A stretch of 64,000 bases of DNA from Nitrososphaerota archaeon (lineage in GTDB: Archaea > Thermoproteota > Nitrososphaeria > Nitrososphaerales > Nitrosopumilaceae). This document shows positions 305-34,714 of this stretch, piece after piece. The stretch is taken from positions 1-64,000 of the forward strand of contig JACRJT010000046.1 of the NCBI GenBank assembly GCA_016215465.1, in the 5' to 3' direction. Below the pieces are notes generated by a model that searched no databases, was not told the DNA's origin, and saw only the letters and a program-made list of their open reading frames with translations. The position numbers and the translations under genes were made by a program. Each line of letters begins with the position of its first letter. The stretch's first letter is position 1.

Positions 305-1766
305 CCAAGTAATCGATAGCAAGTCTGACTCCAAATCCTGTCGCACCCCTTGGATTGTAAGATTTTTCCTTTGTTCCAGTTTGAATCCATGCAGTTCCTG
401 CAATGTCAAAGTGAGCCCATGGGGTGGTTCCAACTGCGTTTGCCAAAAATGCAGCAGCTGTAATTGCACCTGCAGCCCTTCCAATTCCTACGTTTTTGAT
501 GTCTGCATAGTCCGACTTTATCATCTCAATATAGTCCTCGTTTAGCGGAAGCTGCCATACCTCCTCCCCTGTCCTATCTGATGATTTTCTGACCTTGCTT
601 ATGATACCGTTGTTGTTGCTTACAAGTCCTGCCATGTTTGGCCCTAATGCGACAATGCATGCGCCAGTAAGTGTTGCAAAGTCAAGTACTGCCTTTGGCT
701 TGTATGTTTTTACCCCATATGATAATGCGTCAGATAAAATCAGTCTTCCCTCGGCATCCGTATTGAGAATTTCTGCAGTGCTTCCTCCGTACAGTTTGAT
801 TATGTCGCCTGGCCTGTATGATTCTCCGCCTGGCATGTTTTCAACTGATGGAATTATTCCAACCAAATTTACTGGCAACTTTAATTCTGATACTGCCTTC
901 ATTATTCCTAAAACTGTGCAACCGCCGCACTTGTCAAATTTCATTTCATCCATTTTGTCTGCCGGCTTGATCGAAATTCCCCCAGTGTCAAAGGTGACTG
1001 CCTTTCCTACTATGACTGTGGGCCTGTCGTCCTTTTTTCCGTTGTATTCTAGTATGATTAGTTTTGGCTCGTTTTTACTTCCCCTGCCTACTGCCGTGAT
1101 TCCGCCAAATCCCTTTTGTCGTAACTCGTTTTTTGATAGAATGGTACACTTGAGCTTGTTTTTTGCTGCCAAGGACTTTGCAAAGCCGGCCATGTGAACT
1201 GGGGCGCATTCGTTTGGAGGTAGATTTGCTATGCTTCTGGCAAAATTCACTCCCTCTGAGACTGTCTTTGCTTTTGATATGTGATCTGATATCTTGGTTT
1301 TATCTGATACCAAAATTGTAATGCTTTGCAGTTTTGGATTTTTTTCCTTTTTGTATTTGTCAAACGAATACTGAGAAAGGCTGACGCCTTCAACTATCGC
1401 GTTTGCTGCAGAGTCTGCCTTGAGCGGAAACTTGTCTGGAAGTACGATGGAAAACTCGGATATCTCTAACTCTCTGATCTTTTTTGCTATCTTGCCTGAG
1501 GCTATCCTAATAGTTTCATGAGTTATTTTGTGTATGTGTCCTAGTACTGCAAGAACAATCTTTTCTGCAGGAATCAATCCGTGAGTGTGAATTATGTCAA
1601 GACTTGCGCGCTTGCCCTTTGTTTCTTTTATCGATTGTTTTATTGCTGCAAGTAATTTTGCGTCTAACTTTGGCAAGCCAAATGGTTCTGATTTTTCTGC
1701 AACAAAGAAACACAGAGCCCCGGTCTTCTTTTTTATCGGCTGCGTGTTTTCTGAGCTTATCATCAT
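291..1766 (-). CDS. pepA: Leucyl aminopeptidase (M17 family)
   Basis: M17 cytosolic leucine aminopeptidase, which removes N-terminal residues from peptides as a di-metal hexamer. The C-terminal catalytic domain holds the family signature NTDAEGRL at residues 336-342. Expected metal ligands are Lys255, Asp260, Asp278, Asp337 and Glu339, with catalytic Lys267 and Arg341; all are present. Residues 1-170 form the variable N-terminal domain. At 491 aa the length is normal for the family. The first two codons are both ATG, so the start may shift by one residue. The gene is monocistronic, convergent with the small zinc-finger gene. Known M17 enzymes also act in peptide recycling or as DNA-binding proteins; only the peptidase role can be read from sequence. 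Confidence 0.93.
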   Translation of the reverse strand: MMISSENTQPIKKKTGALCFFVAEKSEPFGLPKLDAKLLAAIKQSIKETKGKRASLDIIHTHGLIPAEKIVLAVLGHIHKITHETIRIASGKIAKKIRELEISEFSIVLPDKFPLKADSAANAIVEGVSLSQYSFDKYKKEKNPKLQSITILVSDKTKISDHISKAKTVSEGVNFARSIANLPPNECAPVHMAGFAKSLAAKNKLKCTILSKNELRQKGFGGITAVGRGSKNEPKLIILEYNGKKDDRPTVIVGKAVTFDTGGISIKPADKMDEMKFDKCGGCTVLGIMKAVSELKLPVNLVGIIPSVENMPGGESYRPGDIIKLYGGSTAEILNTDAEGRLILSDALSYGVKTYKPKAVLDFATLTGACIVALGPNMAGLVSNNNGIISKVRKSSDRTGEEVWQLPLNEDYIEMIKSDYADIKNVGIGRAAGAITAAAFLANAVGTTPWAHFDIAGTAWIQTGTKEKSYNPRGATGFGVRLAIDYLASSL

Positions 1767-1846
1767 ACAGTTCTGGCTCGTATTTTTTGCGCTATTATAG
1801 ATTACTCATGCATATCGATAAATAGCTGATTTTTCCCTCAACCAAC

Positions 1847-1987
1847 ATGACTAGCATGAAATGTGTATCTTGCGGAATAGGGTTCTTTTCACCAACTGGC
1901 TCAAACAAATGTCCCAAGTGCACAAAAAATCAAGGCACAGAAATGGATCATGGCCACGACTCTTGCGGTTGCGGACATAGTCACTAA
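1847..1987 (+). CDS. Small zinc-ribbon protein with His/Cys-rich tail (46 aa)
   Basis: This frame, too short for routine calling, encodes 46 residues. Residues 6-25 form a zinc ribbon with Cys6-x2-Cys9 and Cys22-x2-Cys25. The last 12 residues (HGHDSCGCGHSH) hold four His and two Cys, a metal-binding tail such as is seen in small metallochaperones. The ATG is preceded by AAATAGCTGATTTTTC-type A/T-rich sequence, consistent with a leaderless promoter about 26 nt upstream. It lies divergent from pepA with about 80 bp between the two starts. Function is not known; metal storage or delivery is an inference from the tail only. Confidence 0.6.
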   Translation: MTSMKCVSCGIGFFSPTGSNKCPKCTKNQGTEMDHGHDSCGCGHSH

Positions 1988-2026
1988 TTTTTTATTTTAA
2001 TGTGATAAAATCAGAAATGTAAATTC

Positions 2027-2581
2027 TTATTTTTTCTGTTTTTCATCAAAATATTTCTGGCATTCAAATTCTTGGAATGACTGCTGTAGCTTTTCTTTGC
2101 CTTGTCCGTCTGAGACAATTCTTGCAATTTGTTCAAGCTCGGGGCTTATCGATGCCTCCTTCATAAGTGCGGGTGTCAAAACATTTCGAAACTCGTCTGA
2201 GAGCGGTTTTTTGAAAAACTCTATTCTGTTGTCCTGGTTTTGCAAGATTTCCTCCCATGGCTTGAACTCTTCTGGATAGTTGGCAAGCAAAACGTCTATT
2301 TTTACATCAGGCAATTTTTCCCCATCTGGGTACTGCCCATATGCAATGGCGTAAATCAATTCGCATTCTGTATTGATCTTGTACGTCCCGTCCACACCTG
2401 CTTCTGACGTAAGACTTGGCCCTAGTATTTCACTTGTAGCATCCTGTACCGTGTCATCTGGAGCCAAATCTTGTTTTGTAATATCCTGGCTTGGGATGAT
2501 ATATGCTGCAAAGACGATCGCAATTGCTGCTGCAACTCCAGCTGCAATCATGCCGATGTTTTTCTTTGCTAACAAGCACAC
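2027..2581 (-). CDS. Membrane-anchored extracytoplasmic protein, unknown function
   Basis: The 184-residue product starts with a single hydrophobic segment (about residues 9-27, GMIAAGVAAAIAIVFAAYII) that is a signal anchor, followed by a polar, mostly helical extracytoplasmic region. It contains two Cys (in TECELIY and in FECQKYF) that could pair. The start used is GTG at 2581; a TTTTTTAG box lies about 25 nt upstream, which fits leaderless transcription. I recognise no domain. Proteins of this build are frequent in Thaumarchaeota. It stands alone between the zinc-ribbon gene and a convergent or divergent set of short genes. Confidence 0.6.
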   Translation of the reverse strand: MCLLAKKNIGMIAAGVAAAIAIVFAAYIIPSQDITKQDLAPDDTVQDATSEILGPSLTSEAGVDGTYKINTECELIYAIAYGQYPDGEKLPDVKIDVLLANYPEEFKPWEEILQNQDNRIEFFKKPLSDEFRNVLTPALMKEASISPELEQIARIVSDGQGKEKLQQSFQEFECQKYFDEKQKK

Positions 2582-30357: not shown

Positions 30358-30468
30358 GAAAGGTGGTCGCTTTATAACAAACATAAACGTTACCACAAAA
30401 ATTATCAAAAGTGAGTATTAGAAAAAAGTTAAATAGAAACCTTGGTTTTCACACAACAGGTAAACACT

Positions 30469-30798
30469 ATGAATAAAGCACTATTAGGCGCATCAATACT
30501 TGCCATTGCTGCCATCTCTGTCGGTATGATGACAGAACAAGCATTTGCCCAATACATGGGCACTGTTGGTGAGGGCGGCAAAACAGGCAAGAACACCTTG
30601 GAAGAGACACTGAAACTTGCAAAAGATAGAGTGGATTGGGCCAAAGCAAACCCTTCAACAGGTTCAGGTACCCCATATCTTGCAGCAGACGGTGTCTTGG
30701 GAGCTTCAGCAATTTCCGCAGCAGTCTTTGGAGGAATCGCAGCAGCGTTCTTTATCAGAGGAAGAAGCGGTAGATATGCAGCTCAAGGCCGAGGGTAA
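30469..30798 (+). CDS. Small exported/membrane protein, candidate AmoY or AmoZ
   Basis: The 109-residue product starts at ATG 30469 with a signal peptide (MNKALLGASILAIAAISVGM ... EQAFA), has a short extracytoplasmic stretch (GTVGEGGKTGKNTLEETLK...) and one C-terminal membrane helix (about 78-98) before a basic tail RGRSGRYAAQGRG. Archaeal AMO is known to contain two extra small subunits, AmoY and AmoZ, whose genes are linked to amo in streamlined genomes. Size, topology and position next to a second small membrane protein and amoB/amoC fit that, but I cannot say which of the two this one is. A CCTCTCTTTTC sequence follows the stop. Confidence 0.65.
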   Translation: MNKALLGASILAIAAISVGMMTEQAFAQYMGTVGEGGKTGKNTLEETLKLAKDRVDWAKANPSTGSGTPYLAADGVLGASAISAAVFGGIAAAFFIRGRSGRYAAQGRG

Positions 30799-30807
30799 AC
30801 CAACAAC

Positions 30808-30830
30808 CTCTCTTTTCTATTTTATTAAAT
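30808..30830 (+). terminator. Pyrimidine-rich terminator after candidate AmoY/Z gene
   Basis: CCTCTCTTTTC at 30808-30818, continuing into a T-rich stretch, starts 10 bp after the stop of the upstream gene. The same CTCTCTTTT sequence follows three other amo-locus genes. Oligo-T tracts are the known archaeal intrinsic termination signal. No strong hairpin precedes it. Confidence 0.55.
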
Positions 30831-30877
30831 TTCTAAGGATAAGCGATCTTGTAAAATTTTTGATTATCAGAGAAATG

Positions 30878-30885
30878 TATATATC
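30878..30885 (+). promoter_or_regulatory. TATA box for the 90-aa membrane protein gene
   Basis: TATATATC at 30878-30885 is centred about 28 nt upstream of ATG 30910, the expected distance for a leaderless archaeal transcript. There is no room for a conventional ribosome binding site after the predicted start. Confidence 0.6.
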
Positions 30886-30909
30886 GCACGTATTGGGTTG
30901 AGTAATTCG

Positions 30910-31179
30910 ATGACTCCATTACTCGGTACAGTGTTTAGTGTTCTGTCTACCGTATTTGGACAATTAGGACCAGGTTATGATCCATTGTTCTATGATGTCA
31001 TGGTCTACATCTTTGGCACAATCATGTTTGCTGTGTTCCTTCTAGGAATCATATCATACTGGTTGCGTGTCCATGGTTGGTCGTACAAAGACAACCGTGA
31101 AAGATGGGTTGACGAGTTAGACAGACACTTTGAAAGAGAAGGTATCGGTTTGATACCAGATAACGGAAAATACTGGTAA
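30910..31179 (+). CDS. Single-pass membrane protein, candidate AmoY or AmoZ
   Basis: The 89-residue product from ATG 30910 has one clear membrane helix (about residues 26-50, VMVYIFGTIMFAVFLLGIIS) flanked by short soluble ends. The C-terminal cytoplasmic part (YWLRVHGWSYKDNRERWVDELD) is highly charged. A TTG four codons upstream is also open, but the TATA box is placed for the ATG. With the preceding small gene it forms the best candidate pair for AmoY and AmoZ, known to co-purify with archaeal AMO. Assignment rests on size, topology and linkage only. It is followed by the ACTCTCTTTTTT terminator-like tract. Confidence 0.65.
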   Translation: MTPLLGTVFSVLSTVFGQLGPGYDPLFYDVMVYIFGTIMFAVFLLGIISYWLRVHGWSYKDNRERWVDELDRHFEREGIGLIPDNGKYW

Positions 31180-31180
31180 A

Positions 31181-31204
31181 ACTCTCTTTTTTCATTCTTT
31201 TTAC
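31181..31204 (+). terminator. T-rich terminator after the 89-aa membrane protein gene
   Basis: ACTCTCTTTTTT begins directly after the stop at 31179 and continues T-rich to about 31204. It is the same CTCTCTTTT class of signal as after the other amo-locus genes. Confidence 0.55.
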
Positions 31205-31255: not shown

Positions 31256-31792
31256 TTATTTTGGTGGTGCAAAGTCATGTTCTGCCGTCTTGTCATACGT
31301 TTTTGTGAAGAATTCCGCACGATAATGATAACCGTCTATGATTGGCGTATGGGTATAGTCTTTGGACTCATTACCGTTTACATAAATTTTAGACTTGGAT
31401 TGATCCATGTCTCGTATGGGGAATCCATTATCATGGAAAGTTGTCCATGTCCATAGGAAATGACCTATCTCAAAAGGAAATTCTTCCTTCCATTCAGCAT
31501 GAATGACTCCATCGTTAGTCAAAGTATGCAATGCGTGTCTGCAATTCTCGTTATTTCCAATGTTTGCAGGAATTTCGATCTTTTCCTTATCTACGTATAA
31601 TTCTAAAGTGGCAGTAATCTTGTGATTTGTTTCGATATTGTTAATGCATACTCTGAGAGGATCGTCCATGTGAAACCATTGCTGGACAAAAGTGCTTGCA
31701 ACCCCAACTGATATTCCTATAGCTGCAGTTAGTGCTAAAAACTTAAGCGTTTTTTTCCTTTTTGCAGGATCGCCCATCCCAGGCCAAATCAT
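31256..31792 (-). CDS. Membrane-anchored protein next to amoB, unknown function
   Basis: The 178-residue protein has one N-terminal membrane helix (about residues 17-36, LKFLALTAAIGISVGVASTF) and an extracytoplasmic domain with VCINNIETNHKITATLELYVD and two Cys (VCI and NCRHAL) that may form a disulfide. The domain ends in a His-containing region (IDGYHYRAEFF, AEHDFAPP). It lies downstream of amoB on the same strand with 120 bp between. I do not recognise the family. Its position within the amo locus and the extracytoplasmic His residues make a role in AMO assembly or copper handling conceivable, but nothing in the sequence proves it. Confidence 0.6.
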   Translation of the reverse strand: MIWPGMGDPAKRKKTLKFLALTAAIGISVGVASTFVQQWFHMDDPLRVCINNIETNHKITATLELYVDKEKIEIPANIGNNENCRHALHTLTNDGVIHAEWKEEFPFEIGHFLWTWTTFHDNGFPIRDMDQSKSKIYVNGNESKDYTHTPIIDGYHYRAEFFTKTYDKTAEHDFAPPK

Positions 31793-31912
31793 GCCTGAAT
31801 GATTCCTAGATTACATAAAGTCGTTTCTAAATCATTTTCCGCCTTTTCATTATTTGCAAAATACATGCCTGTGTTTGATTATAATAAAATGAAAAGAGAG
31901 GGGTTTGTTGGT

Positions 31913-32479
31913 TTAGATTACTTGCCAGGGGCGAGTTGCGAATGTTATGACGTAGCCAACTCCAATGATGATTGATTGATACATGATGTTTGTGTATGGA
32001 ATTGGTTTCAATATTGGTTCGCCAGTAACTACTACTGTTTGTCCTGGGCCTAATCCTGGTCCAACTGAAGCAACGTTAAGTTGTGTGTGTACGTGATATA
32101 CCCCTGGTTCTAATGCCTTTGCCCTGATCTCGTATGGGATTACGGCATTACCTGGTATCTGAAAGACGTTTCCTGGTGGGCTTCTTGCTAGAATTTCCCA
32201 TCTGTTACCTGCGTTGGTTGACTCTGTGAATATAGAGTTCCAACCTCTTAGGTCCCTTTCAACAAGACTTACGAACTTGCCACTCATGACTAGCTCTTCA
32301 CCTGTTTGCAGTGATTGTCTGTTGAATGTCTCATCTTCAATTTTCACGAAACGACTTTGCAACTGTGCTTGTACACCGTGCGCTTCTGCAGATTGAACCA
32401 TGTGGGCCAAGTTTGGACCAAATGTGCCAAGTGCTAAGACCGCAGCGAGTGCCACTACGAATATTTTTTTGTCGACCAT
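31913..32479 (-). CDS. amoB: Ammonia monooxygenase subunit B
   Basis: The 188-residue subunit, from ATG 32479, is the extracytoplasmic cupredoxin-like subunit of archaeal AMO. A signal peptide (about 1-33, ending QSAEA) precedes mature-end His34. His34 and the HVH pair His129/His131 correspond to the copper-site B ligands of the related particulate methane monooxygenase. One C-terminal membrane helix (about 165-185) follows. It is shorter than bacterial AmoB because the second cupredoxin domain is absent, as known for archaea. The upstream frame to 32503 is not supported. It is divergent from amoC, sharing a 281-bp promoter region. Confidence 0.97.
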   Translation of the reverse strand: MVDKKIFVVALAAVLALGTFGPNLAHMVQSAEAHGVQAQLQSRFVKIEDETFNRQSLQTGEELVMSGKFVSLVERDLRGWNSIFTESTNAGNRWEILARSPPGNVFQIPGNAVIPYEIRAKALEPGVYHVHTQLNVASVGPGLGPGQTVVVTGEPILKPIPYTNIMYQSIIIGVGYVITFATRPWQVI

Positions 32480-32760: not shown

Positions 32761-33324
32761 ATGGCACAGATGCCGGCATTAATCCCAAAAGAAGTCGAGA
32801 TCCAGAGATTAAAGAAAATCTGGCTCATCGTAATCGCAATGGGATCTGTAGCAGCATCAGTGGAAGTTGATAACTTTGTAGATGGTTCTCTACATCAAAC
32901 CTCTATCAGAGATTCAGCATTTACTCCAGCACATTGGTGGTTGTATACTCACTTTGTTGCACTACCATTAGGTTGGGGATCAGCTGCAATCTATGACAGA
33001 AAGGTACCAGTTCTCAGAGGTCCAAACAACTCCATGAACACCGGATTAAAGATGACCATTCTAGGTTACCTTGCAACCATGTTCACAATCGGAGTTAACG
33101 AAATGTGGCACTTCTGGTTTGTAGAGGAAATCTTCGCAGTTCCAAACCACTGGATGTTCAACATGGGTGTAGTAGTCGCCTTCATTGGCGCTCTAGCATA
33201 TGTCGTAAGAGTATACGCTAGACTAGTCGAACTAGGTGCAGAAACACCAGGTGAGAACCCATACGTTGCAGAAATGTACAAGATGGCCCTAGAAGGCAAA
33301 CTGTACAGCAGATCCATCCCATAA
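32761..33324 (+). CDS. amoC: Ammonia monooxygenase subunit C
   Basis: The 187-residue integral membrane subunit has about five helices and the archaeal AmoC pattern (PALIPKEVEIQRLKKIWLIV, FTPAHWWLYTHFVALPLGWG, GENPYVAEMYKMALEGKL). The copper-C-like region reads NEMWHFWFVEEIFAVPNHW. His117 and His130 have the 13-residue spacing of the methane monooxygenase copper-C His pair. The third ligand position (four before His117) is Asn113, not Asp, with Glu114 next to it. Expression is expected from the strong TATA box upstream. A stem-loop plus T run follows the stop. Confidence 0.97.
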   Translation: MAQMPALIPKEVEIQRLKKIWLIVIAMGSVAASVEVDNFVDGSLHQTSIRDSAFTPAHWWLYTHFVALPLGWGSAAIYDRKVPVLRGPNNSMNTGLKMTILGYLATMFTIGVNEMWHFWFVEEIFAVPNHWMFNMGVVVAFIGALAYVVRVYARLVELGAETPGENPYVAEMYKMALEGKLYSRSIP

Positions 33325-34063: not shown

Positions 34064-34714
34064 ATGGTCTGGCTTAGACGATGTACACACTACTTATTCA
34101 TAGTAGTAGTTGCAGTAAACTCTACCCTGCTAACAATCAACGCAGGTGACTACATCTTCTATACTGACTGGGCTTGGACTTCGTTCACAGTGTTCTCTAT
34201 ATCACAAACATTGATGTTGGTGGTTGGAGCATGCTACTATCTTACATTCACTGGAGTTCCAGGAACAGCTACGTATTATGGGCTGATAATGACCGTCTAC
34301 ACTTGGGTAGCAAAAGGTGCATGGTTTGCACTCGGATACCCGTATGACTTCATTGTTACACCAATTTGGTTGCCATCGGCAATGTTGCTTGATTTGGCAT
34401 ACTGGGCAACAAAGAAGAACAAGCACTCACTGATTCTATTCGGCGGTGTATTGTGTGGAATGTCATTACCACTATTCAACATGGTCAATCTGATCACTGT
34501 TGCTGACCCACTAGAGACTGCATTCAAATATCCAAGACCAACGCTTCCCCCGTATATGACCCCGATAGAACCTGCGGTAGGCAAGTTCTATAACAGTCCA
34601 GTCGCATTGGGTGCAGGTGCAGGTGCTGTATTAGCAGTAACCTTTGCCGCATTAGGATGTAAACTGAACACGTGGACATACAGATGGATGGCAGCTTGGT
34701 CCAAGTGGGACTAA
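34064..34714 (+). CDS. amoA: Ammonia monooxygenase subunit A
   Basis: The 216-residue product starts MVWLRRCTHYLFIVVVAVNS as in all archaeal AmoA. It is an integral membrane protein with about six helices and oxidises ammonia to hydroxylamine together with AmoB and AmoC. Recognisable archaeal AmoA segments include NAGDYIFYTDWAWTSFTVFS, WVAKGAWFALGYPYDFIVT and the C-terminal TWTYRWMAAWSKW. It is the most widely used marker gene for ammonia-oxidizing archaea and identifies the organism type. An AACTCTCTTTTCC tract follows the stop. Confidence 0.98.
   Translation: MVWLRRCTHYLFIVVVAVNSTLLTINAGDYIFYTDWAWTSFTVFSISQTLMLVVGACYYLTFTGVPGTATYYGLIMTVYTWVAKGAWFALGYPYDFIVTPIWLPSAMLLDLAYWATKKNKHSLILFGGVLCGMSLPLFNMVNLITVADPLETAFKYPRPTLPPYMTPIEPAVGKFYNSPVALGAGAGAVLAVTFAALGCKLNTWTYRWMAAWSKWD

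Follow-up and report, generated by a model that had tools for sequence, protein, structure and literature searches.

Two small genes close to the ammonia monooxygenase (AMO) genes of a Nitrosotenuis-like archaeon code, with a probability that we place at about 0.96, for the accessory membrane subunits AmoZ (30469..30798) and AmoY (30910..31179) of the archaeal enzyme. Positions refer to the window, i.e., the whole 64,000-nucleotide stretch of DNA that was analyzed. The assignment is made because sequence identities, protein masses, gene order and lineage-specific cysteine patterns agree, and the gene set for all six subunits, amoABCXYZ, is confirmed by sequence in this organism. A preliminary description of this DNA had proposed the pair as AmoY and AmoZ and had left open which was which; the concurring evidence now names the first gene amoZ and the second amoY, and so supplies labels for two genes outside Pfam and NCBIfam coverage. 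The two AOA AMO subunits were described by Hodgskiss et al. 2023 (PMC10030591), and the facts about amoYZ were thus already established in that year for other AOA. The features of the region are:

30420..30437, plus strand: amoZ promoter element, AGAAAAAAGTTAAATAGA, with a TATA-like core AAGTTAAATA at about 30427-30435; near-invariant in the 12 relatives shown
30469..30798, plus strand: amoZ, 109 aa, 11.0 kDa, lacking cysteine and with a basic C-terminus
30808..30816, plus strand: exact copy of the CTCTCTTTT tract 3' of amoZ, a likely transcription termination tract
30872..30889, plus strand: amoY promoter element, GAAATGTATATATCGCAC, with a TATA-like ATGTATATA(T)CGCAC at about 30876-30889; near-invariant in the 12 relatives shown
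30910..31179, plus strand: amoY, 89 aa, 10.4 kDa, with one membrane helix at about 25-55
31182..31190, plus strand: exact copy of the CTCTCTTTT tract 3' of amoY
31256..31792, minus strand: gene for a 178-aa protein between amoY and amoB, with an N-terminal membrane helix and an extracytoplasmic domain bearing two cysteines
31913..32479, minus strand: amoB, 188 aa (in the ORF tool listing the interval begins inside the stop or one base past it)
32761..33324, plus strand: amoC, 187 aa
33426..33785, plus strand: amoX, 119 aa, lacking a Pfam or NCBIfam model and identified by position and conservation
34064..34714, plus strand: amoA, 216 aa (PF12942, E 9.7e-116)

Orthology of the two small proteins

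Aligned with the Nitrosopumilus and Nitrososphaera proteins, as the preliminary description had suggested, both products find their match. The second protein is 84% identical over 89 aa to the AmoY copy in an N. maritimus SCM1-like genome (1,645,259 bp) and 61% identical over 77 aa to that in an N. viennensis-like (Nitrososphaera-like) genome (2,527,938 bp), the strain being inferred in either case. For the first protein the corresponding values against AmoZ of the same two genomes, with the same proviso on strain, are 58% over 110 aa and 34% over 122 aligned positions (pairwise E 6e-12). Judging, among other things, by gene order and protein mass, these copies are presumably Nmar_1506 and NVIE_004540 (AmoY) and Nmar_1507 and NVIE_004550 (AmoZ): the pair in the N. 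viennensis-like genome has the published gene order and computed masses of 9.56 and 12.84 kDa, the published ones being 9.6 kDa for AmoY (NVIE_004540) and 12.8 kDa for AmoZ (NVIE_004550) (PMC10030591). No better counterpart of NVIE_004540 or NVIE_004550 was found elsewhere in the genome to which the window belongs, which has a single AmoZ.

In profile searches, the sampled Nitrosocaldaceae-like and Nitrososphaeraceae-like genomes are matched at E 1e-28 to 1e-34 by AmoY and at E 2e-4 to 3e-16 by AmoZ. Across 300 genomes of the class, matches were obtained in 198 for AmoY, 215 for AmoZ and 201 for AmoA, and among the matches listed AmoY and AmoZ are restricted to the families in which all AmoA matches fall. 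The one f5 genome sampled, a 97%-complete draft, gave no match to the AmoY profile, which points either to an assembly gap or to a divergent AmoY.

Neither protein is matched by Pfam or NCBIfam models, and small membrane proteins are common, so that one might take the two for unrelated proteins lying beside the amo genes by coincidence. Against this stand the strong orthology to the described AmoY and AmoZ, the identical gene order and the restriction to AOA families; we regard such a coincidence as extremely improbable, and the alignments already refute it. The PDB, which includes structures of the bacterial pMMO, returned no relative of either protein in a sequence search. Weak matches of AmoY to PsbH and FixQ-like proteins were dismissed as chance similarity of one membrane helix.

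The window AmoY shares with the AmoY of archaeal AMO (NVIE_004540, Nmar_1506, NCAV_0488; arCOG08672) its length, its one membrane helix, its place beside amoZ, a QxGPxYDPLFYDVMxYIF core and a C-terminal EL...E.E.IGL.P motif, and differs from it at the sequence level only. The window AmoZ has in common with its archaeal counterparts (NVIE_004550, Nmar_1507, NCAV_0486) the signal peptide, the GSGTP motif preceding a single C-terminal membrane helix and the place directly upstream of amoY; it differs from those of Nitrososphaera and Nitrosocaldus by the absence of cysteines and by a soluble part about 17 residues shorter. The cysteines are themselves a lineage marker, AmoZ having been reported with a disulfide pair in Nitrososphaera and Nitrosocaldaceae, a zinc ribbon in Nitrosocosmicus and neither in other AOA (PMC10030591). 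The recovered family follows this scheme, with CX9C in a Nitrososphaera-like genus (g27) and a Nitrosocaldaceae-like family (f2), four C-terminal cysteines (CxxC...CxxC) in a Nitrosocosmicus-like genus (g23), taxon names being inferred throughout, and none in the window. Separately, a CX9C pair was also seen in AmoZ (locus L170) of the f5 genome (G112), which has AmoA.

Start sites, promoters and terminator tracts

The mechanical ORFs of amoZ and amoY open at TTG codons (30442 and 30898, respectively). Because of the position of the promoters and the conservation in relatives, we favor ATG 30469 as the true start of amoZ and ATG 30910 as that of amoY, which yield the 109-aa and 89-aa proteins. 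Comparison of the 70 bases 5' of each small gene in the 12 relatives shown reveals that the upstream elements are near-invariant while the bases that flank them vary, a pattern which supports the presence of a dedicated promoter in front of each gene, as the preliminary description had it. The position of the amoY element implies a transcript that would be almost leaderless.

The view that both genes end in the same tract as amoA and amoB likewise held, in that CTCTCTTTT lies 3-13 bases past the stops of amoZ, amoY, amoB (window position 31892, just after the gene) and amoA (34722, just after the gene); these are 4 of the 18 genomic copies. The window has five copies against 1.3 expected, a figure to be read with the motif having been chosen post hoc, after it had been seen. 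Genome-wide there is no overall enrichment, the 1.70-Mb genome having 18 exact copies against 41 in the control. Beyond Nitrosotenuis and its nearest relatives, conservation extends to a T-rich tract but not to the exact form, and the tract of Nitrosopumilus is a different one. Since the motif is neither enriched genome-wide nor kept in Nitrosopumilus, we reject it, as a general rule, as an amo-specific signal. It is likely a transcription termination tract, possibly a lineage-specific one.

Gene neighborhood

When the 89-aa protein was used to fetch loci, most of the 80 obtained had the order S15/amoZ/amoY/178-aa gene/amoB/amoC/amoX/amoA; a Cenarchaeum-like locus is rearranged. The common order corresponds to the published layout, in which amoY follows amoZ directly and amoYZ is found 1-2 genes away from amoABCX in most Nitrosopumilaceae (PMC10030591): in the window, amoZ immediately precedes amoY and the pair is one gene from amoB, versus two genes in the amoY-amoB gap of the N. 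maritimus-like genome. The small genes are hence near the amo genes, as had been proposed; they do not, however, abut amoB, because a conserved minus-strand gene, that for the 178-aa protein (31256-31792), intervenes.

This 178-aa protein is linked to amoYZ in Nitrosopumilaceae and has relatives in all AOA families sampled. It was considered as a seventh AMO subunit, an idea dropped because Nitrososphaeraceae-like genomes carry multiple members of its family and weak matches occur in two genomes of a family lacking detected amoA; by present knowledge it is not an AMO subunit.

Predicted topology and role in the enzyme

Reading frames and hydropathy agree with the preliminary picture of two small membrane proteins, one of 109 aa with a signal peptide and one C-terminal helix, the other of 89 aa with one helix. 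In AmoZ the signal peptide spans about residues 1-27, with a hydrophobic stretch at about 3-23 and an AxA-type cleavage site (AFA|Q), and the C-terminal membrane helix is at about 73-97, hydropathy placing the hydrophobic stretch at 75-97. Between them, a single-chain structure model of low confidence (mean pLDDT 63) predicts one helix, at 44-60. By alignment, the cysteine-bearing helical hairpin region is about 17 residues shorter than in AmoZ of the N. viennensis-like genome; therefore the predicted two-helix support of AmoB shrinks here to one weakly predicted helix. AmoY has a single hydrophobic span by hydropathy (25-56), and its structure model, likewise of low confidence (pLDDT 70), has three helices, among which a C-terminal one (62-77) is conserved; the described AmoY is likewise mostly helical, with one transmembrane helix. 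Within Nitrosopumilaceae, conservation of AmoY is highest in its C-terminal half, which may therefore form a contact surface.

Native-complex proteomics of AMO was done for N. viennensis and N. cavascurensis, and co-migration, cross-links and modelling put AmoY and AmoZ in the AMO protomer, to which they add membrane helices, with AmoZ touching AmoB (PMC10030591). By analogy with these systems, both proteins would reside in and stabilize the AMO complex of the window organism. AmoY would be a single-span protein in the membrane, and AmoZ would be exported via its signal peptide and anchored by its one C-terminal helix, leaving a short stretch exposed on the outer side of the membrane. Following the published model, the two would flank the AmoABCX core and contribute membrane helices, and AmoZ would give a soluble part against AmoB, a part that in the bacterial enzyme belongs to PmoB. 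The proposed structural role, completing the protomer, is thus like that of the C-terminal soluble domain and membrane helices of PmoB; the difference is that AmoY and AmoZ are separate subunits, for which the PDB search gave no relative by sequence. For archaeal AMO, a search of the open-access literature yielded no publication of a cryo-EM structure. Given that the soluble part of the window AmoZ is shorter and modelled with a single low-confidence helix, the notion that AmoZ stands in for the missing soluble domain of AmoB would have less to rest on in this lineage, and the reduced AmoZ soluble part in Nitrosopumilaceae bears on that claim.

AmoZ might alternatively be a subunit in a loose sense only, acting chiefly as a partner of AMO in its assembly or regulation, or belonging to a wider membrane family, with AmoY as the stable subunit. 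On the native gel of N. viennensis, AmoZ ran apart from AMO, its migration being uncorrelated with AmoABC, and the AmoZ-AmoB cross-link exceeds the distance limit; in N. maritimus, amoZ is expressed below amoY (PMC10030591). The separate promoters of the two genes in the window fit such a division, as do the AmoZ paralogs found elsewhere in many relatives, some by Amt/P-II-like genes and some by regulator-like proteins with the same segment. Yet AmoZ is present in essentially all AOA, mostly adjoining amoY, its cross-links were seen in the AMO band, and a correlation with AMO is published for N. cavascurensis (PMC10030591), so that we consider the looser association unlikely and retain AmoZ as an accessory subunit alongside AmoY.

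AmoZ paralogs in related genomes

The AmoZ profile search recovered extra copies in many relatives. Some of these, mostly of 103-112 aa in Nitrosopumilus-like genomes, are transcribed divergently from a gene whose product, of about 250-280 aa, consists of an N-terminal winged-helix-like part (assigned by eye, without a library search), a membrane span, an AmoZ-like segment and a second span. The AmoZ-like segment is detected by the AmoZ profile at E of about 1e-7 to 1e-11 and contains the GSGTP motif. A profile of the winged-helix-like protein was used to fetch 20 loci (L190-L209); in every one an AmoZ-type gene adjoins that protein's gene divergently, one of the 20 showing an apparently frameshifted C-terminus. 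An example is locus L193:

1098-1409, minus strand: AmoZ paralog
1501-2253, plus strand: winged-helix-like protein

We found no mention of this pair in the literature searched, which is not proof of its being unpublished. A tentative and rather doubtful proposal is that AmoZ founded a wider membrane family of AOA, in which the Nitrosopumilaceae pair, whose winged-helix-like member has an outside segment copying the L..A..RV..NP.AGSGTP motif of AmoZ, might act as a sensor of AMO assembly or of the ammonia supply, exchanging AmoZ variants or tuning expression. Since the window genome lacks a paralog, this reading concerns its relatives; the pair was seen in one genome of the window's genus. These AmoZ-like regulator candidates offer a testable lead on possible control of AMO.

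In two genomes, a second full-length AmoZ occurs near P-II-like and ammonium-transporter (Amt)-like genes, both named by sequence inspection only (L179, 3094-3426, plus strand; L180, 3053-3385, plus strand). A further architecture is seen in a 594-aa protein (L181, 3413-5197, plus strand), which combines the AmoZ soluble motif, near its N-terminus, with a von Willebrand A-like domain (VVVLDVSGSMDS) behind it; the genome that codes for this protein has seven AmoZ matches.
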